Shown: piece after piece, positions 9,171-62,511 of the stretch
Position numbering within the stretch: position 1 is the first letter of the stretch
Layout: every line of letters starts with the position of its first letter
Assembly: GCF_003946045.1 (NCBI RefSeq)
Contig: NZ_RHNW01000006.1
Coordinates: 1-64,000 of the forward strand
Length of the DNA stretch: 64,000 nt
Source of the DNA: Levilactobacillus mulengensis
GTDB lineage: Bacteria; Bacillota; Bacilli; Lactobacillales; Lactobacillaceae
Reading direction: 5' to 3'
Position numbers and translations under genes: made by a program
The notes under the pieces: generated by a model
Databases searched by the model: none
What the model was told of the DNA's origin: nothing
The model's input: the letters and a program-made list of their open reading frames with translations, nothing else

Positions 9171-9372
9171 TAACGTTTCAGCATGCTGACCGTTTCCGAC
9201 GGCGGGTTCAAGCTGCCCTGCTGTGGGGCCCGGTTCCAGACTGAGGAGCGGTCTTCCACCTCGCTTTGAAGCCACGAAAACCACGTGTCTTCAAAGTCGT
9301 CCCATGCTCTAAACTGAGAAGGTCACTCAGTTAAGACCATCGACACAGCTGGTCACTCCCGTTGAAACGTTA
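9171..9372 (-). repeat. structured repeat R1 (type 1)
   Basis: Member of the dispersed family. Hairpins: AACTGAG/CTCAGTT, CTTTGAAG/CTTCAAAG and AGAC/GTCT, each differing in paired bases from other copies. The conserved CGACACAGCTGGTCAC is present, but about 22 bp beyond it are missing, as if lost between two GGTCAC direct repeats. Outer arms: TAACGTTTCA (9171-9180) and TGAAACGTTA (9363-9372), a perfect 10-bp inverted repeat. Strand is given for the reading that starts GTCAGTGACCAGAGGC. Confidence 0.85.
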
Positions 9373-9739
9373 CCTCAATCATGGCCAACCTTTTGCAATC
9401 ACCACGATAGGTTTGCTTCAACTATTGTGACAGATACTAGGGATATTTCAACAGGTTACTTCTGCGTTCCTCTTGTATTTACAAACGGTAATTAAATTAT
9501 CGCGCATCTCCAATTCAGAATCAAACGACTTATCGCGTCTCCTATATAGAGTTCGACAACCATTAGAGTAAGAATATAGGAGCACACACGATTTACTGCT
9601 AAACATCTAGTCGCATTCTATTGACAAATCTTAACAACTCATCAGCAAAACCTGTCTCCGCCTATTTCATCGGCCCACCAATAACACACATGTAAAGCAA
9701 TGCAACCACCACCGTCAGTAAAATTTGGTTCACCTTTCT
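9373..9739. other. intergenic region, nothing recognised
   Basis: A/T-richer spacer between repeats R1 and R2. I see no supported reading frame, RNA gene, hairpin terminator or clear promoter. Confidence 0.5.
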
Positions 9740-9900
9740 CAGTGACCAGAGGTGAGCCAAGCCAGACAGCTGTGCCGGTGTTCTTGGTTGGGGGCACTTC
9801 CCAACCTAGAACACGGGACGACCTATGAGACCGCTTTTCAGGCTCATAGGCGAGGCGGAAGACCGCTCCTCAGGCTGGCTTGAGCTCACCGCCGAGAATG
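9740..9900 (+). repeat. structured repeat R2 (type 1, internal deletion)
   Basis: Begins CAGTGACCAGAGG. Hairpins GGTTGGG/CCCAACC and CCTATGAG/CTCATAGG are covariant versions of the family stems. The segment normally holding CCACAGCAGG is deleted between CAGGCTGG and CTTGAGC. It lies 33 bp from R3 in the same orientation. Confidence 0.8.
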
Positions 9901-9916
9901 TAGCCGTCGACCGTAT

Positions 9917-10137
9917 AATTTGGTGCGTCTGTGTCAGTGACCAGAGGCGAATCAAGGTGCCCAGCTGTGTCGATGGCCTTGGCTGAGGTTCTTTCTCAGC
10001 CTAGACCATGGGGCAACCTTTGAGACCGCCCTATGGCTCAAAGTTGAGGTGGAAGCCCGCTCTCCGGCTGGAACCGACCCCACAGCAGGGAACCTTGAAT
10101 TCACCGCCGGGAACGAAACCCCAGCGCGCACCAAATT
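9917..10137 (+). repeat. structured repeat R3 (type 1)
   Basis: Full-length core at 9933-10114. Outer arms AATTTGGTGCG (9917-9927) and CGCACCAAATT (10127-10137) are a perfect 11-bp inverted repeat. It ends 43 bp before the CIRCE element of clpE and is read in the same direction as clpE. Confidence 0.9.
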
Positions 10138-10179
10138 TCACCACGGTTTGGGAAAAATAGGAGAAATCAGGAGTCGATT

Positions 10180-10206
10180 TTAGCATTCTACTACCGAGAG
10201 TGCTAG
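10180..10206 (+). promoter_or_regulatory. CIRCE element (HrcA operator) upstream of clpE
   Basis: TTAGCATTC, nine bases, GAGTGCTAG. This matches the CIRCE consensus TTAGCACTC-N9-GAGTGCTAA with one mismatch in each arm. HrcA represses heat-shock genes through such sites. Confidence 0.85.
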
Positions 10207-10266
10207 AATAAAATTGTTCGCTGGAAACGCCACGATTACCGCTGATTCTGTCGCGAAACAAATTAC

Positions 10267-10294
10267 TTGCACGGCAGGTCGAACGCGGTATAAT
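10267..10294 (+). promoter_or_regulatory. promoter of clpE
   Basis: TTGCAC (10267-10272), 16 bp, TATAAT (10289-10294), immediately followed by CtsR heptads. Confidence 0.8.
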
Positions 10295-10296
10295 GT

Positions 10297-10320
10297 GGTC
10301 AATGGTCAAGAAAGGTCAAA
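10297..10320 (+). promoter_or_regulatory. CtsR operator of clpE
   Basis: Three GGTCAAN heptads: GGTCAAT and GGTCAAG adjacent, then AAA, then GGTCAAA. The last two with the 3-bp spacer form a canonical CtsR box just downstream of the -10 hexamer, where repressor would block initiation. Confidence 0.85.
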
Positions 10321-10385
10321 ACTTTTCTCACACAGACCTGCGTGGGTTTCCCACGAGAATTCCAGGCAAGAAAGGAGACGACAAG

Positions 10386-12620: not shown

Positions 12621-12633
12621 AGTCCATTTTTAA

Positions 12634-12795: not shown

Positions 12796-13896
12796 ATGGC
12801 TTTTTTTGACTGGTTACGACGGGTGATCGAACCGAATCAGGCACCCAAGCGGCGGCCGCGGCACGCCCAAGCACGGCGACGGCCAGCCCCCGCGCCGGTT
12901 GTGCCAGAAACACCCGAACCCCGGGCCACGACCCTGCCCTTAGCCCCAACACCCGTCTCACCGACACCGCAGGCCGCACCCCAACCGGTTGCGAAGGCTG
13001 CTCAGGTAGCGGCTACCCTGGTCGTCCGCTTAGTGGATGACCAAGATCAGCCGCTGCAACCCGCATTGGTCCTCACGGGCGCCCTCAACCAGCCGGTCAA
13101 CTTCCGCTTTCCTAAAATTCCGGGGTACGCGCTCCGTGATGTCCACGGGTTCACTCAGGATTACATTTCAGCATACGGACTGACCACCCTGGTCTACGTT
13201 CGGCACTGGGGGCAACCCATCATTAGCTACCTGGTCGATTACGATACCGGCCGGTTACTAGAGCTCCCCGGAATTCTCCGCGGACGCCTGGGAACGGCCT
13301 TCTCGTTGACCCCCCCAGCCGTTGAAAATTACCACATTTTTCAGGCTCAGGGCCAACAACGTGGCACCTTTAGCCAGCACCCCGGCCAGGTCGTTTACTA
13401 CTACCGGCGGGATTCCTGGCAAATGGTCCAGCGGGTCCATCAATTTGTCTTTCTGCAGGCCGACCATCAGGTTTTCGATGGTCCCAACGGCCAGGCTTAC
13501 GGGTACCAGTTCCCCACGGACTCTTTGTGGCGGCTGTTCATGATCATCACCCTGACCAACGGCGACGTTTGGTACAACCTCGGTGGCGAGCAGTGGCTCT
13601 CGGCCAAGGAAACCGTGCGCCGGGAGCACCAGTTCATCGACCTCGGCTTGCCCGAACCCGACCGGTGGCATCCCGAACCCTTTGAACGCATTGGCACCGT
13701 CGATTACGTGCCGGGCAAGGCCGTGTCCATTTACCACGAGCCTTATGGCGAAACGGCCGGTCAGCTCGACCATGGTGAGGCCCTGGATATTCGCGGCCGC
13801 GTCGTGGATGACCAGCAGTTGGTCTGGTATCAGATTGGGCCGGATGCTTACATTAATGCGCGCTACGTCCGCCTCGCCCTCGTCGCTTACGCTTAA
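12796..13896 (+). CDS. MucBP-like domain protein
   Basis: 366 residues. The N-terminus has a short hydrophobic stretch and then a basic, proline/alanine-rich region (to about residue 75). Two tandem beta-rich modules of about 65-70 residues follow. They carry the MucBP-like pattern VxLVDxxxxPL..GYxLxxV and VYYYRR (about 76-210). The last third resembles a bacterial SH3-type fold. There is no signal peptide or sortase motif, so export is not evident. AGGAGGTG precedes the ATG. The gene stands alone between clpE and a convergent ATPase, and its stop codon overlaps the left arm of repeat R4. Function is unknown. Confidence 0.65.
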   Translation: MAFFDWLRRVIEPNQAPKRRPRHAQARRRPAPAPVVPETPEPRATTLPLAPTPVSPTPQAAPQPVAKAAQVAATLVVRLVDDQDQPLQPALVLTGALNQPVNFRFPKIPGYALRDVHGFTQDYISAYGLTTLVYVRHWGQPIISYLVDYDTGRLLELPGILRGRLGTAFSLTPPAVENYHIFQAQGQQRGTFSQHPGQVVYYYRRDSWQMVQRVHQFVFLQADHQVFDGPNGQAYGYQFPTDSLWRLFMIITLTNGDVWYNLGGEQWLSAKETVRREHQFIDLGLPEPDRWHPEPFERIGTVDYVPGKAVSIYHEPYGETAGQLDHGEALDIRGRVVDDQQLVWYQIGPDAYINARYVRLALVAYA

Positions 13897-14126
13897 TTCG
13901 AACTCGGTTCTCAGTGTTCGTTCCCGGCGGTGGGCTCAAGCTGGCCTGCTATGGGGTCGGTTCCAGCCTGATTCTCAGGCTTCCACCTCGACTTTGAGCC
14001 CGAGGAGCGGTCTCAAAGATCGTCCCATGGACTAAGCTGAGTGAGAAACCTCAGCTAAGACCATCGACACAGCTGAGCAGGTTGATCCGCCTCTGGTCAC
14101 TGACACTGATCATACCAAGTTCAATT
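13895..14126 (-). repeat. structured repeat R4 (type 1)
   Basis: Core 13918-14104. Its third hairpin is a perfect AGCCTGA/TCAGGCT. Outer arms AATTCGAACTCGGT (13895-13908) and ACCAAGTTCAATT (14114-14126) are an imperfect inverted repeat. The left arm begins inside the stop codon of the preceding gene. Confidence 0.9.
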
Positions 14127-17262: not shown

Positions 17263-17345
17263 AGATAGTTATTTTTAAATCAGTCCAGCTAAACTTGTGA
17301 ACCAAAACCAGGCCGTAGAACCAGTAACGCCACAGACGCCACCAT

Positions 17346-17531
17346 GTCAGTGACCAGAGGCGAGCCAAGACGGCCAGCTGTGTCGATGGTCTTAGCTGAG
17401 GTTTTCCACTCAGCTTAGTCCATGGGACAACCTTTGAGACCGCTTCTCAGGCTCAAAGTTGAGGTGGAATCCTGAGAATCAGGCTGGAACCGACCCCACA
17501 GCAGGCCGTCTTGAGCCCGCCGCCGGGAACG
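17346..17531 (+). repeat. structured repeat R5 (type 1)
   Basis: Full-length core. The closing helix is CAAGACGGCC with GGCCGTCTTG, a fully compensated variant. Hairpin TTAGCTGAG/CTCAGCTTA is intact. No convincing outer arms were found by eye. It ends 28 bp from the stop codon of the leftward dipeptidase gene. Confidence 0.85.
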
Positions 17532-17559
17532 AACTGACAAACGCAAGCCCTGAACCGTC

Positions 17560-20651: not shown

Positions 20652-20686
20652 CCCCGCATCCCCCTTTTGAAAAAAGTTGTGGAAGC

Positions 20687-20727
20687 AAAAAAGTTTCGCC
20701 ATCCTAATCGATTGGCGAAACTTTTTA
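20687..20727. terminator. bidirectional terminator between nox and the zinc-ribbon gene
   Basis: AAAAAGTTTCGCCA and TGGCGAAACTTTTT form a 14-bp stem with A and T flanks in both directions. Confidence 0.85.
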
Positions 20728-24404: not shown

Positions 24405-24865
24405 CAAAAAAGCTCAGCCCCCTCACAATCGAAATGGATGAGCTTCACTTGTATTTTAATTTAAATGGCCTAGGCCACCAGTGAACATTGCCGAACGGGC
24501 CAAACCCGTGTCAGCCGCTGGGCTGGGAAAATTGACCACCAATGTCAGTGACCTTGGCAGAACCTTACTAAAAAATCCCCACCACTTCAAATGATGAAAT
24601 GGCAGGGATTCACTAGTATTTAACGTTAATTAGCACAAGTCACCGTTGACCACTACCGAACGGGATAAACCCGTCCGTGTCAGCCGCAGGGCTGAGAAAA
24701 CTGGGCCCAGCTAGGTCGTTGTTAGTGACCAGAGGCGAGCCAAGGTGCCCGGCTGTGTTAGTGAAATTGGCAGAATTCTACCAAAAAATCCCAACCACCT
24801 CAAATTATGAAATGGCTGGGACACAATAGAATTTAAAAGTAAACGACACAAGTCACCGTTGACCA
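24405..24865. repeat. tandem-like array of minus-strand hairpins and repeat arms
   Basis: Three diverged units follow one another. Each has a hairpin preceded by an A run (near 24413, 24571 and 24783), so on the minus strand they look like terminators. The second and third share AATCCC, CACCTCAAAT or CACTTCAAAT, and TGAAATGGC. Each is followed by the element arm GAACGGG..AAACCCG..GTCAGCCGC (near 24482, 24650 and 24870). Units two and three are direct repeats of about 135 bp. No gene is present. Confidence 0.7.
24650..24757 (+). repeat. structured repeat R6 (type 1, left part only)
   Basis: Contains the outer arm GGGCTGAGAAAACTGGGCC, then GTTAGTGACCAGAGGCGAGCC and CGGCTGTGTTAG, and stops there. 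The three core hairpins are absent. It is a truncated copy inside the array. Confidence 0.7.
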
Positions 24866-24870: not shown

Positions 24871-25093
24871 GAACGGGATAAACCCGTGTCAGCCGCAGGG
24901 GCGGTGAAAATAGACTCAGCCGTGGGAGTTGCCTTAGCGGGTTTCCCGCTTAGGCAACTGCTATCTTTGAGACGTGTTCTGCGGCTCAAAGTAAGTCTGG
25001 AGACCGCCCTTCGGCTCCAGACGTGCGCCCACAGCATCACGGTCTATTTTCACCGACCCGGAGGCGTAGGCAACGACCCGTTTAACCCGTTTA
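24871..25093 (+). repeat. structured repeat R7 (type 2 variant)
   Basis: Same three-hairpin plan as type 1 with different sequence: AGTTGCCTTAGCGGG with CCCGCTTAGGCAACT, CTTTGAG with CTCAAAG, and TCTGGAG with CTCCAGA. The inner arms GGTGAAAATAGAC and GTCTATTTTCACC are perfect complements. The outermost arm GAACGGG..TAAAC pairs with GTTTAACCCGTTTA and overlaps the prfC stop codon. Confidence 0.85.
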
Positions 25094-26668: not shown

Positions 26669-26807
26669 TAGTTTTCCTCACAAAAGTTATTTTATATTTT
26701 AAGTTATCGTTTTTTAATGTAAACGTCACAGCTAGTAATTTTAACACATTTAGGCCGACAATTCACGGTTTGTTAGTCGGCTGCGCGAAACCACGACGCA
26801 ACCCGCC

Positions 26808-26997
26808 GCTCCCGACGGTGGATTCAAGTTCCCCTGCTGTGGGGCCCGGTTCCAGCCTGAGAAACGGTCTTCCACCTCGCCTTGGAGCCTGGAAAACCAC
26901 CAGTCTCCAAGGTCGACCCATGCCCTAAGCTGAGCAACCCACTCAGCTTAGGGCATCGACACAGCCGGGGAACTTGATCCACCTCTGGTCACTCAGA
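26808..26997 (-). repeat. structured repeat R8 (type 1)
   Basis: Full-length. It shows the clearest pairing: hairpin GCCCTAAGCTGAG/CTCAGCTTAGGGC is perfect over 13 bp, the second is CCTTGGAG/CTCCAAGG, and the closing helix is TCAAGTTCCCC/GGGGAACTTGA. Flanks (CGCGAAACCACGACGC and GCGCTGCGATTTCGTG) form an imperfect outer arm with about 11 of 16 matches. Confidence 0.9.
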
Positions 26998-29153: not shown

Positions 29154-29456
29154 GCGGGTTAAACCCGCGTCAGCCGCAGGGCTGGGGAAAACTGGGCCCA
29201 GCTAGGTCGTTGTTAGTGACCAGAGGCAGATCAAAGTGACCGGCTGTGTCGGTGGTCTTGGCTGGCGTTCTTTGCCAGCCTAGCCCACGGGGCGACTTTT
29301 GAGACCGCTCTTCGGCTCAAAATCGAGGTGGAAGCCCGCCTTTTGGCTGTAACCGACCCCATAGCCGGGCACTTTGAATCTGCCGCCGGGAACGGAAACG
29401 ACCAGACCCAGTTTTCAACAGCCCGGAGACGCGGACAACGACAGGTTTAGCTCGCC
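29154..29456 (+). repeat. structured repeat R9 (type 1, long arms)
   Basis: Core 29212-29394. The closing helix CAAAGTG/CACTTTG is compensated. The arms are long: GGCGGGTTAAACC pairs with GGTTTAGCTCGCC, and GGGCTGGGGAAAACTGGG with CCCAGTTTTCAACAGCCC. The right arm ends 4 bp before the stop codon of the leftward tagF-like gene. Confidence 0.9.
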
Positions 29457-34134: not shown

Positions 34135-34152
34135 CCCGGTTGCCCCTTCCTG

Positions 34153-34442
34153 GTTTAAACTAGTGTTCTTGCAGTGCCTCCGGGCTGGTGAAAATGGCCT
34201 TCGTCGCGTCCGTTCCCGGCGGTGAGCTCAAGCGGCCCTGCTGTGGGTCCGGTTCCAGCCTGTAAAGCGGGCTTCCACCTCAACTTTGCGCCTAAGGACC
34301 GGTCGCAAAGGTTGTCCCGTGGACTAGGCTGGGAAAATGCCCCAGCCAAGGCCACCAACACAGCTGGTCGGCTTGGCTCACCTCTGGTCACTGCCACGAC
34401 TGGCCCATTTTCACCAGCCCTGCGGCTCACACTAGTTTAAAC
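34153..34442 (-). repeat. structured repeat R10 (type 1, complete with long arms)
   Basis: Core 34211-34394, hairpin GGCTGGG/CCCAGCC. The arms are about 40 bp. The outermost GTTTAAACTAGTGT (34153-34166) is mirrored by ACACTAGTTTAAAC (34429-34442), and GGCTGGTGAAAATGG by CCATTTTCACCAGCC. No target-site duplication is seen outside the arms. Confidence 0.9.
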
Positions 34443-34648
34443 CGCAATGATTATGTACTTTTTGTTTTTGTTGTTACTGTTTATGTCTAACCGTCGATGA
34501 CTCTGACCATGTGCAGTCAATTAATTGATAAAACAGCGTCGGAACCAAACACCGTGTTACATTCCTTTGCTATGCTCACTGATACAATTGTATTCGTTTA
34601 ACACAAATTTAGCCTACGGACTAGAAACACAATATCCTGAACCCATTC
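34443..34648. other. intergenic region between R10 and R11
   Basis: A/T-richer spacer without a supported gene, terminator or convincing promoter. Confidence 0.4.
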
Positions 34649-34873
34649 GGATACGGGGCTAAACCCATGCCAGCCGGAGGGTCGGTGTAAATAGGCTCAG
34701 CCGTGGGAGTTCTCTTAGCGGTTTACCGCTTAGAGGACTGCTATCTTTGAGACGTGCTCTTCGACTCAAAGTAAGTCCGGAGACCGCCCTTCGGCTCCGG
34801 GCGGCGCCCACAGCGTTCCGGCCTATTTTCACCGACCCGGAGGCGAAACCAACGCGCAATTCGCCCCGTATCC
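34649..34873 (+). repeat. structured repeat R11 (type 2 variant)
   Basis: Closely related to R7. Hairpins CTCTTAGCGG/CCGCTTAGAG, CTTTGAG/CTCAAAG and CCGGAG/CTCCGG. The outer arms GGATACGGGGC (34649-34659) and GCCCCGTATCC (34863-34873) are a perfect, locus-specific inverted repeat. Confidence 0.9.
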
Positions 34874-35650: not shown

Positions 35651-35917
35651 CACCTCCGGGGTGGTGAAAATGGGCCGGGACGCGGTATTGGCCGTTCCCG
35701 GCGGCGGGCTCAAGGTTCCCTGCTATGGGGCCGGTTCCAGCCAAAAGGCGGGCTTCCACCTCGACTTTGAGCCAAAAATCGGTCTCAAAGGTCGTCCCAT
35801 GGACTAGGCTGGAAAAGAACTCCAGCCAAGACCATCGACACAGCTGGTAACCTTGGCCCGCCTCTGGTCACTGACATTGTCCTAACCAACCCATTTTTAC
35901 CAGCCCTGCGGCTGACA
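35651..35917 (-). repeat. structured repeat R12 (type 1)
   Basis: Core 35693-35875. The arms GGTGAAAATGGG (35663-35674) and CCCATTTTTACC (35890-35901) pair with one mismatch. The closing helix is CAAGGTTCCC with GGTAACCTTG, and GCTATG sits opposite CACAGC. Confidence 0.9.
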
Positions 35918-38626: not shown

Positions 38627-39085
38627 TTGGTAACAGCACAAGTGGTCTTTGCCACCATCACCGGCAATAACGAAGACGTTGCGGACATCGTCACGGAAAA
38701 AATGGAAGACCTGGGATGTCAGGTCACCGAGACAGAGATTTCACAAACGGACGCTGCCGAATTTGAAAACGTCGACATCTGTGTGGTCTGTGCCTATACC
38801 TACGACGAGGGCTCCCTCCCCGACGAAGGCATGGACTTCTACGAGGACCTCCAAGCCATCGACCTGACCGATAAAATTTACGGCGTGGCCGGTTCCGGCG
38901 ATACCTTCTATGGCGAATACTACAACACCACGGTGGATCACTTTGACGCCACCTTCCAGAAGACTGGCGCCATTCGCGGTGCAGCTCCCGTTAAAATTAA
39001 CTTGGCACCGGATCAGGCCGCTATCGACCAACTCGACGCCATGGCCCAACAGCTCGTGGACACCTACCACGCTAAACACAGCTAA
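38627..39085 (+). CDS. flavodoxin
   Basis: FMN electron carrier of 152 residues. The phosphate-binding loop is FATITGNNED near residues 8-17, and the isoalloxazine loops CAYTYDEGSLP and GSGDTFYGEYY follow the short-chain flavodoxin pattern with an acidic surface. I choose the TTG at 38627, with AAGGAG 8 bp upstream. The GTG at 38618 would overlap that site. It is a single gene. The last codons and stop lie inside the left arm of repeat R13. Confidence 0.9.
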   Translation: MVTAQVVFATITGNNEDVADIVTEKMEDLGCQVTETEISQTDAAEFENVDICVVCAYTYDEGSLPDEGMDFYEDLQAIDLTDKIYGVAGSGDTFYGEYYNTTVDHFDATFQKTGAIRGAAPVKINLAPDQAAIDQLDAMAQQLVDTYHAKHS

Positions 39086-39293
39086 CTTTTTCGTTCCCGG
39101 CGGCGGGCTCAAGGCGCCCTGCTGTGGGGCCGGTTCCAGCCTAAGGAACGGGCTTCCACCTCAACTTTGAGCCTGAGAATCGGTCTCAAAGGTTGTCCCA
39201 TGCTCTAAGCTGAGAAAAAATCACTCAGCTAAGACCATCGACACAGCTGGTCACCTTGGTCCGCCTCTGGTCACTGACGTTTGTGGTCTTTAG
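39072..39293 (-). repeat. structured repeat R13 (type 1)
   Basis: Core 39092-39279 with hairpins CTTTGAG/CTCAAAG and AGCTGAG/CTCAGCT and closing helix CAAGG/CCTTG plus GCTGTG/CACAGC. An imperfect outer arm starts in the end of the flavodoxin gene (CTAAACACAGCTAAC) and pairs with GTTTGTGGTCTTTAG at 39279-39293. Confidence 0.85.
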
Positions 39294-39388
39294 GCGGCTT
39301 TGGTGGCTATCCACGAATTGCTGGTCTTTGTTTTACTTTCTATCCGTATTTGATTCTATGTCTCACAATTATATTAATACGCACAAAT

Positions 39389-40372: not shown

Positions 40373-40603
40373 TAGAAGATGGGTTGGTTGGTATCCTTCG
40401 TTCCCGGCGGCGGGCTCAAGGAGTCCTGCTGTGGGGCCGGTTCCAGCCAAAGAGCGGGCTTCCACCTCAACTTTGAGCCTGGGGTGCGGTCTCAAAGGTT
40501 GTCCCATGCTCTAAGCTGAGAAAAATCACTCAGCTAAGACCATCGACACAGCTGGTCACCTTGGCCCGCCTCTGGTCACTGACACTGACCAAACCATCTT
40601 CTA
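40373..40603 (-). repeat. structured repeat R14 (type 1)
   Basis: Core 40399-40583. Outer arms TAGAAGATGGGTTGGT (40373-40388) and ACCAAACCATCTTCTA (40588-40603) are a 16-bp inverted repeat with one mismatch. The arm touches the ribosome-binding site of the leftward YihY gene. Confidence 0.9.
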
Positions 40604-42776: not shown

Positions 42777-42867
42777 TTCCCTCCAAAGTGGTGTTGATTA
42801 GGTCAATTATAGCAGAAGCGTGTCGGGCATGTTATTAATTCCGGTTTTTCCTCCCAAATGCTACACT

Positions 42868-43080
42868 GAGCGAGAACTGGTTCCGCCTGCGACCGTCAGC
42901 CACTTCCGTCTGTGGGGAACGTCCGAAGCCAAAGGGCGGTCTTCGCACTCGCCTTTCAACCTCACCCAACCCGTGAGTTTAAAAGGACGTCCCGTCCTGT
43001 AAGGCTGGAAGCCCACCGGTCTAACAGGACCGTCACAGATTTCCGCGGCTGACTGTCTCCGAATCCACCAGTTCTCGCTC
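42868..43080 (-). repeat. structured repeat R15 (type 3 variant)
   Basis: Diverged member. Hairpins: GTCCTGT/ACAGGAC with extended pairing, and CCTTT..CTCAC with GTGAG..AAAGG. The outer arms GAGCGAGAACTGGT (42868-42881) and ACCAGTTCTCGCTC (43067-43080) are a perfect 14-bp inverted repeat. The type 1 end motif GGTCACTGAC is absent. Confidence 0.8.
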
Positions 43081-43129
43081 ACTTCTCTGTCTTTTTCATT
43101 TCTGTCTGGCAGTCCTTGACTTACCGGAC

Positions 43130-43310
43130 CGGAACGCTTGGGCGGCCGTCCGAAGCCAAAGAGCGGTCTTCGAACTTGCTTTGAACCTCAAAAAACGAGT
43201 TTCAAAGACACCAGTTCTCTAAGCAACCCAGCCCGTTGCTAAGAGAACTCCCACGGCTGAGTCCATTTTTCCCGCCCTCACGGCTGACTGTAGAGCCAGT
43301 TCTCACTCAC
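43130..43310 (-). repeat. structured repeat R16 (type 2-like, diverged)
   Basis: Reverse orientation of R7 and R11. Contains AGTTCTCT..GCAAC with GTTGCT..AGAGAACT, CTTTGAA..TTTCAAAG and the conserved CCACGGCTGAG. Boundaries are approximate. CCAGTTCTCACTCAC near 43308 resembles the right arm of neighbouring R15. Confidence 0.65.
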
Positions 43311-45146: not shown

Positions 45147-46502
45147 TTAGTGAATAATCATGTTCATTAAGAGCACCATTAACAACCCAACCACGGAGAT
45201 AACGGTTTCCAGTGTCGTCCAGACTTGGAACGTTTGCTTAACGCTCAGGTCGAAGTACTCGGAGAACATCCAGAAACCAGCATCGTTCACGTGGGAAGCC
45301 GCTAAGGAACCGGCCCCGATGGCTAAGGCAATCATGACTGGGTCAGCACCCAGTGAGTGCATCAATGGCATGATCAGCCCGGAAGCCGTCATCCCGGAAA
45401 CCGTGGCGGAACCCAGGGAAATCCGTAAGATAACGGTAATCAGCCAAGCCAACAGGATTGGTGAGAACGTGGAGTTCATCATCAACTGTTGCACGGCCTT
45501 ACCGACCCCACCGTCAATCAGAACTTGCTTGAAGGCAGAACCCCCAGCAATGACCATCAGTAACATGGCGATCGACTTGATGGCGTCTTCCAGCGTGCCA
45601 CTGATTTCCTTCATGGAGCGACCACGATGGAAACCCATGGACCAGATGGCAAAGAGTAAGGCGACGACCATGGCGATGACGGGGTTCCCCAGCATCGTGA
45701 TGACCGCATCCAAACCGTGCGGATTCTTCGGCGCCGTTCCGCCATTGACCGCCATTTGATAAATCGTTGCCAAAATCATGAAGACAACTGGGAATAAGGA
45801 GGTGAAGACGGACAGACCGAAGCCTGGCGTTTCATCCAAATCAAATTCCTTCACTTCACCAAAGGCTGGTAAAGACTTCTTAACGACAAACAATTCTGGA
45901 TTAAACCGACGGATCACGCGGGTCCAAACTGGCCCAGCAATGATCACACAGGGAATGGCCACAATGATTCCGACCATTAACATTTCCCCAACGTTAGCCC
46001 CTAAAGCCGTCGCAACGGCGGTTGGGGATGGTTGTGGTGGTAAGAATCCTTGGGTCGCAGACAGTGCGGCCGCCATGGATATCCCCAGATACAGGAATGG
46101 GACATCGGCTTCCAGCGCAACCGCAAAGACGATTGGCGTTACCAGAACCAGCCCAACTTCAAATAACAGGGAAATCCCAATCAGGAAGGACGCCACCACA
46201 ATGGCAACTTGAAGGCGTTTCTTCCCAAAAATCTTGATCAACGTCCGGGCAATTCGGTAAGAACCCCCAGCGTCAGACACCAACCGACCAATCATGGCCC
46301 CGAACCCAAAAACGATAATCAGTTCGCCCATTGAGCTGCCAATACCGTTTTTGATGGAATCCGCAATACTTGCGGGGTTCATGCCTAAGCCAAGCGCTAC
46401 CAAAATAGACGTAGCGATTAATGAAACGAAGGTGTTTAACTTTACTCGAATGATTAAAAAGAGTAACAGTAAAATACCCAATAATAAAATCACGAACTGC
46501 AT
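45147..46502 (-). CDS. gntP: gluconate:H+ symporter, GntP family (first copy)
   Basis: Membrane permease of 451 residues with about twelve to fourteen hydrophobic segments. The motifs GFGAMIGRLVSDAGGSYRIA, QGFLPPQPSPTAVA and SHVNDAGFWMFSEYFDLSVKQTF match the GntP family. It is a clear paralogue of the permease at 56546, with strong similarity along the whole length. Its promoter spacer holds TGAAAAATATTTTCA, similar in form to sites upstream of gnd, suggesting control by the same RpiR-type regulator. It is transcribed alone. Confidence 0.85.
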   Translation of the reverse strand: MQFVILLLGILLLLFLIIRVKLNTFVSLIATSILVALGLGMNPASIADSIKNGIGSSMGELIIVFGFGAMIGRLVSDAGGSYRIARTLIKIFGKKRLQVAIVVASFLIGISLLFEVGLVLVTPIVFAVALEADVPFLYLGISMAAALSATQGFLPPQPSPTAVATALGANVGEMLMVGIIVAIPCVIIAGPVWTRVIRRFNPELFVVKKSLPAFGEVKEFDLDETPGFGLSVFTSLFPVVFMILATIYQMAVNGGTAPKNPHGLDAVITMLGNPVIAMVVALLFAIWSMGFHRGRSMKEISGTLEDAIKSIAMLLMVIAGGSAFKQVLIDGGVGKAVQQLMMNSTFSPILLAWLITVILRISLGSATVSGMTASGLIMPLMHSLGADPVMIALAIGAGSLAASHVNDAGFWMFSEYFDLSVKQTFQVWTTLETVISVVGLLMVLLMNMIIH

Positions 46503-47115: not shown

Positions 47116-47228
47116 TGAAAACTCCTCCTCACTTTTCTTAGCTACGTCCATTATAACGGAAAACGGTTCCATTGGGGAGCCGAAAGCTATGAAACTTAGG
47201 TTGGTGCTTTGCCGCCTTCGGCTGACAG

Positions 47229-47372
47229 GGATTACGCCTGCTGTGAGGGACGCTTCCAGCCAAAGAACGGGCTTCCAGCTCGCCTTGAAGCCGAAGCCCT
47301 CGTCTCCAAGGTCGCCCCCTGCTGTAGGCCGGGAAAGAACCCCGACCAACACCAGCGACACAGCTGACTCCA
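47229..47372 (-). repeat. structured repeat R17 (type 1, degenerate)
   Basis: Retains TTCCAGCC, the hairpin CCTTGAAG/CTCCAAGG with one mismatch, and CGACACAGCTGACTCC. The end motif is missing. It abuts the start of the universal stress gene. Confidence 0.7.
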
Positions 47373-47463
47373 TCCCTGTCCTCCTACGGCTTTGCAGCAA
47401 CGCCTAACTTCCAAGAGCTTCTGCCCATTTATGGCATTAGGCTTTCTCTTTCCCAACGACCCC

Positions 47464-47516
47464 AGCCTGAAAACGGTCTGGCAACACAGCTGGCCACCTT
47501 GATTCGCCTCTGGTCA
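47464..47516 (-). repeat. structured repeat R18 (type 1, terminal fragment)
   Basis: Only the end AACACAGCTGGCCACCTTGA..GCCTCTGGTCACTCAC remains, followed by CACCTATTTTCACCAGC, an arm sequence also seen in R10 and R20. Confidence 0.7.
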
Positions 47517-47634
47517 CTCACACTGGTTCACCTATTTTCACCAGCTAAGTTTCCCCCTTACATCATCCATAACTAAAAATGGGCACCACCAGTCAGTAGT
47601 CCCCATCCAAACCTAACTTTTTAAATTCTCTAAG

Positions 47635-48128: not shown

Positions 48129-48133
48129 ATATT

Positions 48134-50548: not shown

Positions 50549-50606
50549 GCGAATCCCTCCAAAATTGTTTGAATTATTTTGATTTTTGTTAAATTGTGCT
50601 TAATTG

Positions 50607-50792
50607 CCGTTCCTGACGGCGGGCTCAAAGCGCCCTGCTGTGGGGCTGGTTCCAGCCTAAGGGGCGGGCTTCCACCTCGACTTTGAGCCTGAGAAACGGT
50701 CTCAAAGGTCGGCCCGTGGGCTAGGCTGGGTAAGAACCCCAGCCAAGGCCACCGACACGGCTGAGCACTTTGGCCCGCCTCTGGTCACTGAC
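50607..50792 (-). repeat. structured repeat R19 (type 1)
   Basis: Full-length core. The closing helix CAAAG/CTTTG is compensated relative to CAAGG/CCTTG copies, and the GGCTGGG/CCCAGCC hairpin is present. The outer arm is only weakly visible in A/T-rich flanks. Confidence 0.85.
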
Positions 50793-51110
50793 ACTGATGA
50801 CTCACTTTACTATTTCTATAATTGAAACGCAGGTGTCGTGCCATTGCATAATTCTTCTAATCATTGTCAGCCAAACACAATCAACCTATATTGCGCTTGC
50901 ACAGCCTTGTAAAGTCGAATCATCACCACAAAACACGCTTACCTTCAAGTTTACCATGCCCGTGCGTGAAAACCCGTGACCAGCACTCGGTGATTACTGG
51001 GCGTGTCGCTGGCATTTCTCTTGCCCAGCCAAGCGCTAATCCCATTTTAACAGTCCCCGTGGTCTGGCGATAGCTTTCGGATTAATTTTCTGAAATCTGA
51101 GGGAAATAGT
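50793..51110. other. intergenic region, nothing recognised
   Basis: No gene, terminator or repeat is supported here. A -10-like TATATT near 51133 may serve the next rightward gene. Confidence 0.4.
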
Positions 51111-56545: not shown

Positions 56546-57904
56546 ATGGAACTACTAGCTTTGCTTATCGGGGTCATCTTCTTATTGGTCCTCATTATTC
56601 GTTTCAAAATCAACACCTTTGTTTCCCTGATTTTAACTTCTGTCTTAACAGCCATTCTGTTAGGCATGAACCTCACGACAATCGCCACGACGATTGAATC
56701 CGGGATTGGGAGCCAGCTTGGCGAACTCTCCTTGGTCTTTGGTTTCGGGGCCATGCTGGGTCGGTTAGTTGCCGACGCCGGTGGGGCTTACGTGATTGCC
56801 ACGACACTGATTGACAAATTCGGTAAGAAGCGCCTCCAATTAGCTATTATGCTTGCTTCATTTATTTTAGGTATCGCGCTATTCTTCGAAGTTGGGATGG
56901 TTCTGTTAATTCCTATCGTCTTTGCCATTGCCGTTGAAGCTGATGTGCCAATCCTTTACTTAGGGATTTCCATGGCAGCCGCTTTGTCCGTTACCCACGG
57001 GTTCTTACCTCCTCACCCAGCACCAGTTGCCATCGCGCAAGTCTTGGGTGCCAATGATGGTAAGGTCCTCCTGTTCGGTTTAGTTGTTGCGATTCCTGCA
57101 GCCGTTATTGCCGGGCCAATGTTCACCAAGTTAGCTCAGAAATTTGCACCAGAAGCCTTTGCTCGTAAAGGGAACTTGTCTTCCTTGGGTGAAGTTAAGA
57201 CCTTCAAGCCTTCCGAAGCACCTAGTTTTGGTCTGTCCGTTCTGACTTCCCTCTTCCCAGTTATCCTGATGGCCATCACGACCATCTACAAGATGACGGT
57301 CGACGGTGGGGCAACCCCTACCAAGAACGCCTCCATGTTGGACCAAATCGTTGCCTTGATTGGTGACCCAGCCATCGCGATGTTAATCTCCCTGATGGTT
57401 GCAATGTTCACCATGGGCTGGGGTCGGAAACGTAAGACCTCAGACATCATGGCAACCTTGGAAAACGCGGTTAAGTCTATCGCTATGCTGCTGTTAGTTA
57501 TCGGTGGTGGTGGGGCCTTCAAGCAAGTCCTCATCGACGGTGGTGTTGGTAAAGAAGTTGCCAAACTCTTCATCGACTCTAACATGTCCCCACTGATCTT
57601 AGGTTGGTTAGTCGCCGTTGTCCTCCGTGTGGCTTTAGGTTCCGCTACGGTTTCTGCTTTGACCGCCGCTGGTATCGTTGCCCCATTGATGGCCCAATCC
57701 GGTGTTGACCCTGCCCTCATGGTTCTGGCCATTGGTGCTGGTTCCTTAGCTGCTTCTCACGTGAACGATGCCGGGTTCTGGATGTTCCGTGAATACTTCG
57801 ATTTGACTGTTAAGCAAACGCTGAGCATTTGGACCGTGCTGGAAACTGTGATTTCCATCGTGGGTATCCTGATTGTTCTGTTGCTGAACATGGCGTTCCA
57901 CTAG
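56546..57904 (+). CDS. gntP: gluconate:H+ symporter, GntP family (second copy)
   Basis: Membrane permease of 452 residues with about twelve to fourteen hydrophobic segments. Motifs: GFGAMLGRLVADAGGAYVIA, THGFLPPHPAPVAIA and SHVNDAGFWMFREYFDLTVKQTL. It is the third gene of the gluconate operon, supplying substrate for GntK. A paralogue stands alone at 45147. AAAGGG lies about 12 bp before the ATG. A hairpin separates it from gntK. Confidence 0.9.
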   Translation: MELLALLIGVIFLLVLIIRFKINTFVSLILTSVLTAILLGMNLTTIATTIESGIGSQLGELSLVFGFGAMLGRLVADAGGAYVIATTLIDKFGKKRLQLAIMLASFILGIALFFEVGMVLLIPIVFAIAVEADVPILYLGISMAAALSVTHGFLPPHPAPVAIAQVLGANDGKVLLFGLVVAIPAAVIAGPMFTKLAQKFAPEAFARKGNLSSLGEVKTFKPSEAPSFGLSVLTSLFPVILMAITTIYKMTVDGGATPTKNASMLDQIVALIGDPAIAMLISLMVAMFTMGWGRKRKTSDIMATLENAVKSIAMLLLVIGGGGAFKQVLIDGGVGKEVAKLFIDSNMSPLILGWLVAVVLRVALGSATVSALTAAGIVAPLMAQSGVDPALMVLAIGAGSLAASHVNDAGFWMFREYFDLTVKQTLSIWTVLETVISIVGILIVLLLNMAFH

Positions 57905-57969: not shown

Positions 57970-57973
57970 GTCT

Positions 57974-58253
57974 GGGCTAAAGCATTCGCCTCCGGAATGG
58001 TGAAAATATACTGGTTACCTCCGTTCCCGGCGGTGCGCTCAAGGTGCCCTGCTATGGGGCCGGTTCCAGCCGAAGAGCGGGCTTCCACCTCAACTTTGAG
58101 CCTGAGGTACGGTCTCAAAGGTTGTCCCGTGGGCTAGGCTGAGAAAGAACCTCAGCCAAGACCACCGACACAGCTGGGCACCTTGGCGCACCTCTGGTCA
58201 CTTCTCTAACAGGTGAATTTTCACCATCTCTGCGGCTGACACGTGTTTAGCCC
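57974..58253 (-). repeat. structured repeat R20 (type 1, complete with long arms)
   Basis: Core 58022-58202, with a perfect closing helix CAAGGTGCCC/GGGCACCTTG. The arms GGGCTAAA (57974-57981) and TTTAGCCC (58246-58253), plus ATGGTGAAAAT and ATTTTCACCAT, form an outer stem of about 40 bp. The arm begins directly after the operon terminator. Confidence 0.9.
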
Positions 58254-58540: not shown

Positions 58541-58581
58541 GGTAAAATCAGTCATTTGAGAGAAGAGAGGAGTCTAAGACT

Positions 58582-59904
58582 TTGGCAAAAGAACTACGTC
58601 GAGAAATCGGCACGTTTACTGCCCTGGCAACCGTGATGGGAACCGTGATCGGTGGTGGGGTATTCTTCAAGACCGCTAGCGTGGTGGCTGCCAACCACTC
58701 CGCTAACATGACGCTAGCTGCTTGGATTTTGGGTGGGATTTTGACCATCTGTGCGGGTCTGACGAGTGCCGAACTCGCCGCCGCGATTCCCCGCACCGGG
58801 GGCGCCATGCGTTACCTGGAGTACGCCTACGGCAAGCCTGTGGGTTTCTTAATGGGTTGGGCGCAGCTATTGGTCTATTACCCGGCAAACATCGCGGCCC
58901 TCTCGATTATTTTTGGGACGCAATGGGTCGCCCTATTTCATCTGAGTAGCGCCTGGCAGTTACCGGTCGCCATTCTGTGTGGTCTGAGCATCACTGGCTT
59001 AAACTTTTTAGGCGCTAAGGTCGGCGGGTCCGTTCAGTCGATTGCCCTAATTTTTAAATTGATTCCTATTATCGTCATCGTCGGGATCGGCCTGTTTGCG
59101 CCGGCCAACGCCACGATTCACCTCTGGCCAATTACCACCGGTGACCACCTCAACTGGGGCAGCGCCTTCAGCTCCAGCCTGTTGGCGACGATGTTTGCCT
59201 ATGACGGCTGGATCAGCATCGGGAACATCGCCGGGGAAATGAAGCATCCCGAGCGCGACCTGCCCCGGGCCATCATCATTGGCCTGGCCGGTATCACCCT
59301 AATCTATACGCTGGTCAACCTGGTGTTCTTAAAGACGTTGCCCATCGATCTGATTGCGGGTAATCAAAACGCTGCGGCCGATGCATCCATGAAACTGTTC
59401 GGCCAATTTGGCGGCAAGCTGGTCACGATTGGCATCTTGATTTCCGTCTACGGCGCCATCAACGGCTACACGCTGACGGGGATGCGAGTACCCTTCGCCA
59501 TGGCCGAGGAAGATAGCCTGCCCTTTTCCAAATACTTCCGCCAATTATCCCGGCGGACCTACGTGCCCTATTTTGCGGGGAGCGTGCAGTTCGTCATCGC
59601 CCTGATCATGATGTTTATGGGGAGCTTTGATCTCTTAACAGATATGCTGGTGTTCGTGATGTGGGTCTTCAACTGTCTCATCTTCATCGCCGTCTTCAAA
59701 TTACGGCGGACGGAACCCGAGCTCAACCGGCCTTACCGGGTCCCAGGTTATCCCGTGATTCCGCTGATTGCGCTGGTTGGGGGGATTTTCATCCTGGCAA
59801 CCACGCTGATCACCGAAACGGGCCTCGCCGTCACCGGGCTGCTCCTCACCCTGATTGGCCTGCCAATTTATTTCTGGCACCAACGTCATAAAACCACTAA
59901 TTAA
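58582..59904 (+). CDS. APC-family amino acid permease
   Basis: 440 residues with twelve hydrophobic segments. The N-terminal signature VMGTVIGGGVFFKTASV (about 15-31) and the FAYDGWISIGNIAGEMKHPERDLPRAI segment near 205-232 match the APC superfamily, close to serine/threonine exchangers or SteT-like transporters. The substrate is not determinable. The start is TTG, with GAGAGGAG about 10 bp upstream. A bidirectional terminator follows. It is transcribed alone. Confidence 0.85.
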   Translation: MAKELRREIGTFTALATVMGTVIGGGVFFKTASVVAANHSANMTLAAWILGGILTICAGLTSAELAAAIPRTGGAMRYLEYAYGKPVGFLMGWAQLLVYYPANIAALSIIFGTQWVALFHLSSAWQLPVAILCGLSITGLNFLGAKVGGSVQSIALIFKLIPIIVIVGIGLFAPANATIHLWPITTGDHLNWGSAFSSSLLATMFAYDGWISIGNIAGEMKHPERDLPRAIIIGLAGITLIYTLVNLVFLKTLPIDLIAGNQNAAADASMKLFGQFGGKLVTIGILISVYGAINGYTLTGMRVPFAMAEEDSLPFSKYFRQLSRRTYVPYFAGSVQFVIALIMMFMGSFDLLTDMLVFVMWVFNCLIFIAVFKLRRTEPELNRPYRVPGYPVIPLIALVGGIFILATTLITETGLAVTGLLLTLIGLPIYFWHQRHKTTN

Positions 59905-59950
59905 ACAAAATGGCTCACGCAAGCGCTAAACTTGTGTGAGCCATTTTTCG
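59905..59950. terminator. bidirectional terminator
   Basis: AAAATGGCTCACGCAAG pairs with CTTGTGTGAGCCATTTT, with A and T flanks. It serves the permease and the convergent gshA. Confidence 0.9.
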
Positions 59951-61474
59951 TTAGTTTTCGTAATGTAAGGGCGCTGGTAACGCCGGTAAATCAGGGAACA
60001 GTTGTCGCAAGCGGGCCTCGGCGTCGGGCACACGAGTATCCCGGTCCTCCAACACCTGAGTGATGCCATCAAAGGTAAACATCAGGAGGTCGGCGCCATT
60101 TTCGTCACGCACCTGGTAAAAACGGATGCCGGCTTGCAAGGCGGTCATCACAAATCGTTGCGCGTGATCAGAGAGTTGCTGAAGCTGTGGCAACAAGGCC
60201 GGCGTATTGATGCGGTCGTGATACCATTTGCGTGCCACGGCTTGCCCAAATTTCATCAGGCTACCATTCTCCACGTGGGTCAACAACTTGGCTGCCGGCG
60301 TTAACTCGGGATGCGTCAGGACTTCCTCAAGGTCGTCGATGATGTCCCACTGCTCAATGTGCGTCTGTAGGGACTGGGCCATCTCCCGCATTTCATGGAA
60401 GATCTGCTCCCCCTCCAGCTGATACTGCGTGGCCGTCAGGGGGTTCTCCAACGCGACCGTCTGGTTCTTGGTCCGCGCAGCCGCCAGCGTTTCTGCTAGA
60501 TTTTCCGGCTCCGGTTGGGTCAGCAGGTACAACATGAAGATTTTCAGGAAGTACATCGCGTGGCGACTGACCCCGTTGGGTGTGAACGGCGTGTTGTCAA
60601 AGTCTCTGAGTTCCAGGTATTGGATGCCCCCGGTCAAGAAGTCACGCGCGTTGGCCCGTCCCTTGAGCCGCACCGGCCCATAAAATTCGTGGGCAGAGAA
60701 GTAAGTGCCCTCGTCGATACGGTCCTGAAGTTGCGTTAAATGCGCCGTCAGTGAGGCATAGGTCACCTGTTCTTGTGGAAAATTGACGAAACCGTAAGGA
60801 CTGTTACGAATACTACGCACGGGTTCCTGTAAATCCGCCGGCACAGTCTCGAAGAAGCCCTTTTCTGCGATGGGACTGGCCCCGAACAGGTAGGTCAACA
60901 ACCATTGGTAGCGCACAAAATTTTGGGCGACCCGGAAGTACAACGCATTTTTAAAGGCAACCAGCGAACTGAATTCGGTGGTGTAATGGCTGTACAACCG
61001 ATGAATGACGGGGTCCGGCAAGCTATAGTTGACGTGGACTCCGGTCAAACAGCCGTGTTGCAGGCCGTACTTCTTGACCAAGTACTCCCGGTACGGTCGA
61101 ATCGCCGGGCGGTCAAAGTGATCCGCAATAAACTGTAGATCCGTGTCGTCCACCACCGGCGGCATGCTCAACGGCCAGATGCGGTCGTCGCCCTCCAGTG
61201 AGCGGTACGCCACCGTTTGTAACGTATCGAGTTGGTCCAACGTTCCCCCGATATTGGGGTTGGGGTCGGTGATGACCTCCAACTGACTTTCGGTGAAGTC
61301 CGTTTGAAAATACGGATGGAAAGTCCGGGACCCCAGTTGGCTAGGGTGTGGGCGGCGGCTCAACCGGCCATGCTGGTCGATTCGCTGCTCTTCAATCTCT
61401 AGCCCCACTAGGCTGTGATAAAGCTGTTCTGATAAGTTTTCTTCGCGAATAACCGCTAATAAGTTGTCCAGCAT
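59951..61474 (-). CDS. gshA: glutamate-cysteine ligase
   Basis: Catalyses the first step of glutathione synthesis. The 507 residues match the GshA module of Gram-positive bacteria without the C-terminal ATP-grasp domain of bifunctional GshAB. The family start VGLEIEEQRIDQHGRLS is followed by FHPYFQTDFTESQLEVITDP (substrate-binding acidic residues), GVHVNYSLPDP near 160 and YLELRDFDNTPF near 290. There is no signal peptide. Whether a partner gshB exists elsewhere is unknown; alone it would give gamma-glutamylcysteine. Confidence 0.9.
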   Translation of the reverse strand: MLDNLLAVIREENLSEQLYHSLVGLEIEEQRIDQHGRLSRRPHPSQLGSRTFHPYFQTDFTESQLEVITDPNPNIGGTLDQLDTLQTVAYRSLEGDDRIWPLSMPPVVDDTDLQFIADHFDRPAIRPYREYLVKKYGLQHGCLTGVHVNYSLPDPVIHRLYSHYTTEFSSLVAFKNALYFRVAQNFVRYQWLLTYLFGASPIAEKGFFETVPADLQEPVRSIRNSPYGFVNFPQEQVTYASLTAHLTQLQDRIDEGTYFSAHEFYGPVRLKGRANARDFLTGGIQYLELRDFDNTPFTPNGVSRHAMYFLKIFMLYLLTQPEPENLAETLAAARTKNQTVALENPLTATQYQLEGEQIFHEMREMAQSLQTHIEQWDIIDDLEEVLTHPELTPAAKLLTHVENGSLMKFGQAVARKWYHDRINTPALLPQLQQLSDHAQRFVMTALQAGIRFYQVRDENGADLLMFTFDGITQVLEDRDTRVPDAEARLRQLFPDLPALPAPLHYEN

Positions 61475-61603
61475 GGCGGTAACATCCCCTAACCTTAAGA
61501 TGACTGATTTAACCTAAAGTGTAAACAAAAAAGGGGCCCGTGTCACTGATATTGGCTAACTTTTTTCAAAAAAATTTAGTGAGTAACCCATCCACCGGGA
61601 TAA

Positions 61604-61838
61604 TGAAAATACGTGTTGTCCCTTCGTTCCCGGCGGCGGGCTCAAAGTCCCCTGCTGTGGGGCCGGTTCCAGCCTGTAGGGCGGGCTTCCACCTCAACTT
61701 TGAGCCTGGGGGGCGGTCTCAAAGGTTGTCCCATGCTCTAAACTGAGAAAACCACTCAGTTAAGACCATCGACACAGCTGGTGACTTTGGCCCGTCTCTG
61801 GTCACTAACACGGACCACCTATTTTCAACACGTTTGGA
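61604..61838 (-). repeat. structured repeat R21 (type 1)
   Basis: Core 61625-61809. The closing helix CAAAGTC/GACTTTG is a compensated variant. Arms TGAAAATACGTG..GTCC and GGACCACCTATTTTCA pair imperfectly. It lies upstream of gshA on the same reading strand. Confidence 0.9.
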
Positions 61839-61950
61839 CCATCATTCACGTAAAGTTTTCCGCAGCCCTAGTTCTTCGGGAATACCAACTACTCATGCTA
61901 TTTTCCAATAGCTATGACAACCTTACCAGCTGCCTTTTAACCACAGTCGG

Positions 61951-62328
61951 TCCCAACAATCACTCAAGCAAGGAACCGATACTAGTTCAGAGACGTCAAC
62001 CAAAACTGTCAGTACCCGCATCATCACCCACTACCCTTGCCAGCCGGCTCTTTCAGCCGTTGTTAGCGACCAGAGGCGAATCAAGGTGACCTGCTGTGTC
62101 GATGGCGTTAGCTGAGGTCCCTCACTCAGCTTAGGCCATGGGGCGACCTTTGAGACCGCTCCTCAGGCTCAAAGTCGAGGTGGAAGCCCGCTTCTCAAAC
62201 AGCGGTTGTTTCCCACAATCACTCAAGCAAAGAACCGATGCTAGTCTAGGGACGGCAGCCACGGCCGTCAGCACCGGCATCAACCTCTGCCAGCCGGCTC
62301 TTTCAGCCGTTGTTAGCGACCAGAGGCG
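61951..62328 (+). repeat. direct duplication flanking R22
   Basis: Segments 61951-62078 and 62211-62328 are diverged direct copies of about 120 bp. Both contain CAATCACTCAAGCAA, GAACCGAT and GCCAGCCGGCTCTTTCAGCC and run into the start of a repeat. The unit of about 260 bp includes R22. No gene is present. Confidence 0.8.
62061..62200 (+). repeat. structured repeat R22 (type 1, truncated)
   Basis: Begins TGTTAGCGACCAGAGGCG. It retains hairpins AGCTGAGG..CTCAGCT and CTTTGAG/CTCAAAG, then stops after GTGGAAGCCCGC, losing the closing-helix partner. Confidence 0.8.
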
Positions 62329-62511
62329 GTTTCGCGGACGCAGCTGTGTCGGTGGTGTTAGACCGAGTGCTTTTTCTCGGCCTTACACCACGGGACGACC
62401 TGGGAAACTCGCGCCCCTTGGCGAGGTTTCTAGGCGAGACGGAGGACCGCTTCTCAGGCCGCAGTCGTTCCCCACAGCAGCGGTAGCGAAGACCGCCGCC
62501 GGGAGCGGACC
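62311..62511 (+). repeat. structured repeat R23 (type 1, diverged)
   Basis: Full-length but diverged in sequence. Hairpins GACCGAG/CTCGGCC and CCTGGGAAAC/GTTTCTAGG (with G-U pairs). It ends CCACAGCAGCGG..CGCCGCCGGGAGCGG. It lies next to the pdp terminator. Confidence 0.85.

Follow-up and report, generated by a model that had tools for sequence, protein, structure and literature searches.

BOX, RUP, ERIC, bcr1, and NEMIS are non-coding intergenic repeats of bacteria that fold, and the double-hairpin elements of mitochondria are protein-free, dispersed elements that are organellar and smaller. As stated in an excerpt of PMC2817692, the palindromes of the repetitive extragenic palindromic (REP) and bacterial interspersed mosaic element (BIME) class go with REP-associated tyrosine transposases (RAYTs). 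Stem-loop repeats of 40 genomes, Lactobacillus johnsonii included, are clustered in PMC2267715, according to its excerpted text. Moreover, template switching creates and repairs perfect stems and yields compensatory multi-base changes in one mutation, as the excerpt of Monttinen and Loytynoja (2022, PMC8794818) describes. Here, we analyzed 64,000 nucleotides of Levilactobacillus mulengensis DNA (contig NZ_RHNW01000006.1, positions 1 to 64,000; hereafter the window) and characterized a dispersed repeat that folds into a cloverleaf of 180–200 nt. On balance, with a probability of about 0.56, its copies are old, non-coding cruciform elements resembling miniature inverted-repeat transposable elements (MITEs) that are rewritten by fold-back template switching.

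The cloverleaf repeat is like BOX, RUP, ERIC, bcr1, and NEMIS in being an intergenic repeat that folds, and no Rfam match ties it to any of them. The mitochondrial double-hairpin elements, likened here by description alone, are also protein-free dispersed hairpins, but they are organellar and smaller. As far as the excerpt of PMC2817692 goes, REP/BIME sequences share with the cloverleaf repeat more than 100 intergenic palindromic copies per genome, species-specific sets, and inverted pairs. The cloverleaf repeat differs in its length of about 190 nt and in an abundance that is not tracked by a Y1 transposase. A Y1/RAYT transposase (PF01797) was therefore rejected as the mover: across 23 genomes, the enzyme occurred in nine, G029, G295, G093, and G085 were rich in repeats without it, and G012 and G024 carried it but had no cloverleaf repeats. 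The template-switch hairpins of PMC8794818 are alike in reverse-complement copying; they are described, in the excerpted text, for RNA genes, whereas here a dispersed repeat and neighboring coding ends are copied. Searches of open-license PMC papers found no description of this cloverleaf element in lactobacilli.

An earlier note on the window had listed 23 places for an element with a core of about 185 bp, in which a closing helix surrounds three hairpins, at a density of about one per 3 kb and with no transposase in view. A covariance model (R1) was built from an alignment of 15 window copies, and its search of the window returned 21 distinct copies. Each of the 23 listed starts thus corresponds to a copy or a fragment of one: the 21 R1-matched copies and two 3′ remnants (listed starts 24650 and 47464) recognized by BLAST, motif search, and eye (Table 1). 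Four copies, at 24887, 34668, 42882, and 43119, have diverged core types and score 37–68 bits. The element was thus confirmed, but outer arms extend the repeat beyond 185 bp, and the density over 864 kb of the genome is lower, at about one per 5.8 kb when the 149 distinct places among the 150 best matches are counted. Since 15 window copies were used for R1, independent support comes from the remaining 800 kb of the genome searched and from other genomes.

RNAalifold on the 15 window copies gave 58 pairs, 32 of them with two-sided changes that keep pairing, in the architecture that the earlier note had drawn. Its statement that paired bases change together was likewise borne out. In an alignment of 74 copies from several genera, two-sided changes were observed at 52 of the 58 pairs, 89.5% of cells could pair (65.4% when shuffled), and the covariation score was 0.619, compared with 0.192 for shuffled alignments and at most 0.105 when the pairs were slid by 1–3 columns. 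A custom R-scape-like test with a tree-based null was run on 78 copies and 17,020 column pairs (E ≤ 0.05). Eight column pairs were significant; seven belong to the 58 structure pairs, the eighth is read as continuing a hairpin, and the other 51 structure pairs stayed below this level. In addition, the copy at 39090 folds better than its shuffles, with z −4.1 as DNA and z −5.6 and −4.7 as RNA for the two strands, whose energies are −85.5 and −85.3 kcal/mol.

The search with the model was extended, as the earlier note had suggested, to the genome and its relatives. In the 864 kb searched of the 3.11-Mb L. mulengensis genome, R1 gave 246 matches at E ≤ 0.01; owing to the near symmetry of the fold, many weak matches merely mirror a strong one on the opposite strand. 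The best 150 of these matches represent 149 distinct places, and by proportion the whole genome would hold about 536 copies. Matches were observed in 33 of 35 Levilactobacillus genomes and in 91 of 397 genomes of the family (9 of 40 genera), the window's genome being counted in both. Eight genomes from seven other genera had 138, 145, 5, 17, 118, 124, 27, and 9 matches at E ≤ 1e-5, with at most 150 matches scored per genome. For the order and the class, a broader model (R2) was used. Of 395 genomes in the order, 24 had R2 matches, and 21 of these genomes belong to the family; in a class sample of 398, run with stricter filters above 40 genomes, only the window's genome matched. Per genome, at most 74 matches were counted within the genus and at most 6 in the family, order, and class searches. 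The weak R2 matches in G694, G706, and G695, which belong to two other families of the order, may be distant members or chance. Within the genus, R1 found no match in G012 and G024, and G004 has two, while most relatives have dozens; these three genomes are natural controls for loss or absence.

Searches for a described counterpart gave no match at the copies. Rfam was run on the window at the gathering thresholds and at E ≤ 1 and returned only a tRNA and, at 20664–20726, a sub-threshold match to the Bacillus small RNA ncr1175 (30.8 bits; gathering threshold 60). On three loci of other genera, Rfam reported tRNAs, a sub-threshold T-box, and others, none overlapping the R1 matches. A blastn search of plasmid and phage records with one copy found no match, although diverged versions would escape such a search.

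Outer arms enclose the core in Levilactobacillus; some follow a consensus, and many are specific to the copy. The outer flanks pair in a copy-specific manner in 53 of 145 copies: no other flank complements a copy as well as its own downstream one in 29 of 78 copies and in 24 of 67, with about one expected in each set. Furthermore, an inverted, imperfect copy of the adjacent gene end lies on the far side of the element for 17 of 56 adjacent ends (p ≤ 0.02 each, about one expected among the 56); 16 of these 17 are among the 47 gene 3′ ends. Eight of the 17 proteins concerned were scanned with family profiles. The profiles reach to within 7 residues of the C-terminal end in six of them (galT 487/487, galM 338/340, and YqeY 146/148, as well as a GGDEF protein, metI, and pntB). 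In a PerR-like protein and a BCCT protein, by contrast, 13 and 39 residues lie beyond the last profile position. For the six proteins, the coding end is therefore the older sequence. The flavodoxin gene beside the copy at 39090 has C-termini that are alike in species with an empty site; among nine relatives in which the downstream side could be read, seven have a short gap and no copy, and other copies are present in G025 and G005. Selection on a fold common to all copies could not have produced arms that complement unique host sequence, including the coding ends of conserved proteins, and such inverted host flanks are stronger evidence for template switching than coupled changes between orthologs.

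The copies also change where they sit. Over 160 kb, the L. mulengensis genome is colinear with those of two close species, G029 and G015, from which it differs at 12.2% and 16.8% of fourfold sites, and most of the 39 copies compared occupy the same sites in both. Among 55 ortholog comparisons, 17 (or 14 once two truncated rows and a flipped one are set aside) place the core of the other species closer to another L. mulengensis copy than to its ortholog, by a margin of 0.03 or more, so that cores are replaced at fixed sites. By eye, one core of the second type is inverted in place between G029 and G015, and a 132-bp loss between arms resembles a palindrome deletion. In ten ortholog triples (triples above 16% difference were left out), single-lineage changes from Watson-Crick pairs led to G-U 6 times, to A-C 13 times, and to other states 12 times singly and once doubly. 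Coupled changes from one Watson-Crick pair to another numbered eight, with a chance mean of 0.79 and none of 2000 trials as high.

The persistence of the copies at their sites would also suit DNA cruciforms or single-stranded hairpins that spread first, gained a function later, and are now selected for a host protein (gyrase, nucleoid, or recombination) or for a replication step, as proposed for BIMEs. Selection on single-stranded or cruciform DNA is possible, and it agrees with the small strand preference in pairing and fold energy. In 30 low-divergence ortholog comparisons, moreover, paired sites differ at 98 of 3347 positions (2.9%) and unpaired sites at 211 of 2217 (9.5%); a further 16 comparisons were of high divergence and 16 were gappy. 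However, such selection leaves the arms that copy unique coding ends unexplained, single mismatches of the kind counted in the triples are tolerated, and G012 and G024 do without R1 matches. We consider this explanation unlikely, although somewhat likelier than the RNA and debris readings below. Concerning the earlier claim that the fold is under selection, the fold common to several genera and the slower change of paired sites speak for it, while covariation alone is no proof.

A repeated RNA gene or cis-regulatory RNA, which the earlier note had favored, would account for strong covariation on a defined fold, for folding well below the shuffles, and for the few pairs at which G-U is common. 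The state of the pairs argues otherwise. When only pairs that are at least 50% Watson-Crick are kept, the ratio of G-U to A-C is 1.31 in the L. mulengensis genome (55 pairs) and 0.77 in other genera (52 pairs); at a threshold of 80%, it is 0.86 (48 pairs) and 0.55 (43 pairs). These values near 1 contrast with 27 G-U against 2 A-C in tRNA stems from the same loci (23 distinct tRNAs). The antisense strand of the tested copy folds equally well, and no Rfam family was recovered at the window copies even at E ≤ 1. The earlier note's step from covariation directly to selection on the fold is not supported here, because G-U hardly exceeds A-C at Watson-Crick-dominant pairs, both strands of the tested copy fold equally, and the arms copy host sequence. 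Collectively, a DNA-level process accounts for the covariation better than an RNA does.

Orientation bears on the same question. Among the best 78 copies of the L. mulengensis genome, the four classes of orientation to the flanking genes hold 16, 18, 13, and 17 copies, 11 copies lie inside a predicted open reading frame (ORF), and 3 lie at edges, a distribution that counts against a transcribed element. Of these copies, 34 follow a 5′-side gene that runs in their own direction and 30 follow one that runs in the opposite direction; for the remaining 71, the counts are 31 and 20. In other genera (loci L171–L190), the 5′-side gene is co-oriented in 46 of 67 copies and opposite in 21, which favors an RNA and leaves room for a transcript-linked role there. 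A role as 3′ untranslated region or terminator was rejected as unsupported in the L. mulengensis genome. Cloverleafs often form an inverted pair with the 5′ ends outward: neighbors less than 500 bp apart are +− in 19 cases, −− in 12, ++ in 3, and −+ in none in the L. mulengensis genome, and +− in 31, ++ in 3, and −+ in none in other genera. Inverted pairs between convergent genes could produce a co-orientation bias, though the bias would not thereby be explained away. An RNA gene or regulator is, in our view, improbable.

Marks of mobility were found in a sister genus, g38. Two of its genomes carry cloverleafs within units whose ends resemble CTAAAGATTGAAAGT, and the units of g38 and two copies of another genus, g4, have inverted ends close to CTAAAGRTTGAAAGT, 15 bp long in g38. 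These terminal inverted repeats (TIRs) gave 25 and 31 matches in the two g38 genomes, compared with 1 and 0 for the reversed pattern. Exact direct repeats of 6–8 bp flank 14 of 23 TIR pairs, with a control of 1.2% of 502; among the 23, some sites recur in both genomes, though only a few, and one locus is counted twice. A blind scan of g4 for TIRs and target repeats returned the same TIR with exact 8- and 9-bp repeats in 2 of 20 groups (control, 0 of 80), and blind scans found nothing in G093 or in G085, G383, and G145. The target repeat CTCAGAC is common to a 612-bp unit with a cloverleaf in G374 and a 136-bp unit without one in G295 (L219, L212). A 4.7-kb TIR pair in G374 was discarded, as it consists of two separate elements around ordinary genes.

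A candidate autonomous partner is present in G220, a further g38 genome, as an element of 1565 bp that is bounded by the TIR on either side, encodes a 451-aa IS4-family transposase (NF049925, 481.6 bits; cut-off 250), and contains no cloverleaf. The contigs C20, C22, C28, C32, and C52 of G220 start with the IS4 end sequence at about base 60–77, as would be expected if identical IS4 copies had interrupted the assembly. The only trace of such a partner seen in the 864 kb searched of the L. mulengensis genome is a transposase relic (L005, 13306–13772; 57% identity over 119 aa) with an intact end sequence, ACTTTCAACCTTTAG, at 13758–13772, which lies 0.2–0.3 kb from the cloverleaf copy at 13946–14131 of L005. 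The g38 units and the two g4 copies are like MITEs of the IS4 family in that no coding region was seen, the ends are inverted, target repeats of 6–9 bp occur, and, in g38, an IS4 partner has the same ends. Unlike such MITEs, they carry one or two covarying cloverleafs that the insertion sequence (IS) lacks, and in Levilactobacillus no such ends were found and the arms are often copy-specific. The alternative that the earlier note had raised, decayed pieces of an ordinary IS, is thus borne out in the shared ends of the g38 units and the IS4 element and contradicted by the lack of a cloverleaf in the latter. Ordinary MITE debris, in which compensated states would be old, come from separate masters, and spread by conversion without special copying now, fits the TIRs, target repeats, and IS4 partner of g38 and the core swaps, but it predicts neither the copy-specific arms of host coding sequence nor the scarcity of G-U at pairs with three or four Watson-Crick states, and it is as improbable as the RNA.

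Old, MITE-like cruciforms that are rewritten by fold-back template switching would connect these observations, which concern the repeats, their fold, the pairing statistics, the flank copies, and the mobility marks of g38. An IS4-family transposase may have spread the cloverleaf units, as the common ends in g38 suggest. Since neither such ends nor target repeats were found in Levilactobacillus, the transposition route there is taken from the relatives. The Levilactobacillus copies would be old, and their DNA would be rewritten where they sit. The nascent strand would fold back on a hairpin and copy one arm into the other, which would make the stems grow and stay complementary; at times, this copying may take in a neighboring gene end in inverted form, and cores may be exchanged for those of other copies. 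We infer the copying step from its products, as no event was caught in the act. Tentatively, and at somewhat less than even odds, the cloverleafs may form a class of self-editing repeats that make replication fold back, with arms copied, genes taken in inverted form, and cores replaced.

Several observations weigh against the reading as rewritten, MITE-like cruciforms. Own-flank pairing was observed in only 2 of 90 copies of other genera, and a pure DNA parasite need not show the 5′-side co-orientation bias seen there. Over all 58 pairs, G-U outnumbers A-C by 304 to 80; the excess is due to five G-U-rich pairs, which may be poorly predicted, as the method of choosing pairs permits G-U, or truly RNA-like. 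By eye, some unpaired bases seem conserved across genera. The coupled changes of the triples could also result from partial conversion by other copies, so that the triple test alone is no proof of template switching. Regarding mobility, the repeat bordering the IS4 element of G220 is exact over 5 bp only, by eye. In the L. mulengensis genome, none of the 105 groups scanned had a TIR with an exact target repeat, nor did any of 420 control groups, and the g38 TIR shows no enrichment, with 20 matches for the TIR and 20 for its reversed control. A strict blind scan of G295 gave 0 of 14 (control, 1 of 56), though looser ends are clear in that genome.

Table 1. Cloverleaf copies, fragments, and outer arms in the window
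Feature	Position	Strand	Score or sequence
Copy, 3′ part of closing helix altered	9189..9379	+	R1 135 bits
Copy-specific outer arms of the 9189 copy	9171-9180 / 9363-9372		TAACGTTTCA / TGAAACGTTA
Copy without part of the 5′ half	9737..9902	-	R1 139 bits, alignment
Full copy; outer arms by eye	9932..10117	-	R1 200.7 bits; AAATTTGGTGCG / CGCACCAAATT
Full copy, start 21 bp past ORF end	13917..14105	+	R1 192.8 bits
Full copy, start 27 bp past ORF end	17345..17533	-	R1 201.3 bits
3′ fragment (listed start 24650), within spaced outer-arm repeats	24719..24757 (approximate limits)	-	
Second core type in common outer module	24887..25066	-	R1 46.3 bits
Full copy	26805..26997	+	R1 189.2 bits
Full copy; core seemingly exchanged relative to the G015 ortholog	29211..29396	-	R1 202 bits
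Full copy	34209..34396	+	R1 210 bits
Outer arms of the 34209 copy	about 34152-34208 / 34397-34443		GGTTTAAACTAGTGT...ACACTAGTTTAAACC
Second core type, inverted neighbor of the 34209 copy	34668..34845	-	R1 37.7 bits
Full copy	35691..35876	+	R1 212.1 bits
Full copy, start 5 bp past flavodoxin ORF end	39090..39279	+	R1 210.8 bits
Right outer arm, imperfect inverted copy of flavodoxin coding end (about 39046-39079)	39286..39324	+	
Full copy with outer arms	40397..40584	+	R1 210.6 bits; TAGAAGATGGGTTGGT / ACCAAACCATCTTCTA
Diverged copy, site without element in G029 and G015	42882..43065	+	R1 67.7 bits
Outer arms of the 42882 copy	about 42867-42881 / 43067-43081		TGAGCGAGAACTGGT
Second core type	43119..43286	+	R1 37.1 bits
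Diverged copy	47211..47395	+	R1 106 bits
3′ fragment (listed start 47464)	47484..47525	+	
Full copy	50606..50793	+	R1 207.2 bits
Full copy; outer module encloses another core type in G029	58020..58206	+	R1 212.6 bits
Full copy	61623..61810	+	R1 209.7 bits
Copy, 5′ end altered	62061..62256	-	R1 90.1 bits
Diverged copy; outer arm resembles 3′ arm of adjoining terminator, by eye	62311..62509	-	R1 150.5 bits

Other features of the window were also recorded. Between 24405 and 24940, adjoining the 24887 copy, a unit of about 101 nt occurs three times, spaced (24431, 24596, and 24809), and combines a hairpin resembling a terminator with the outer-arm motif of the cloverleaf elements. The PtsI encoded in the window shares 97% identity with the Levilactobacillus lanxiensis protein. 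Two GntP-family permease genes on opposite strands (45147–46502 and 56546–57904) are the sole gene-sized repeat in a self-comparison of the window. A Pfam scan of 40 window proteins, representing part of the ORFs, named no transposase, in agreement with the earlier note, apart from weak AAA-domain cross-matches (TniB, IstB) in a ClpE-like ATPase.

A functional RNA fold is, as a standard, proved by covariation. The covariation of the cloverleaf repeats is strong and extends across genera, yet it comes with the marks of a DNA process: wobble is hardly preferred where Watson-Crick pairs dominate, both strands of the tested copy fold equally, and arms are built from host coding sequence. The repeats would provide a large natural test set in which selection can be set against template-switch mutation. 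If the self-editing reading is true, they would offer RNA-like covariation without RNA, with hundreds of natural replicates per genome. The cloverleaf repeats also constitute a sizeable part of many Lactobacillaceae genomes.

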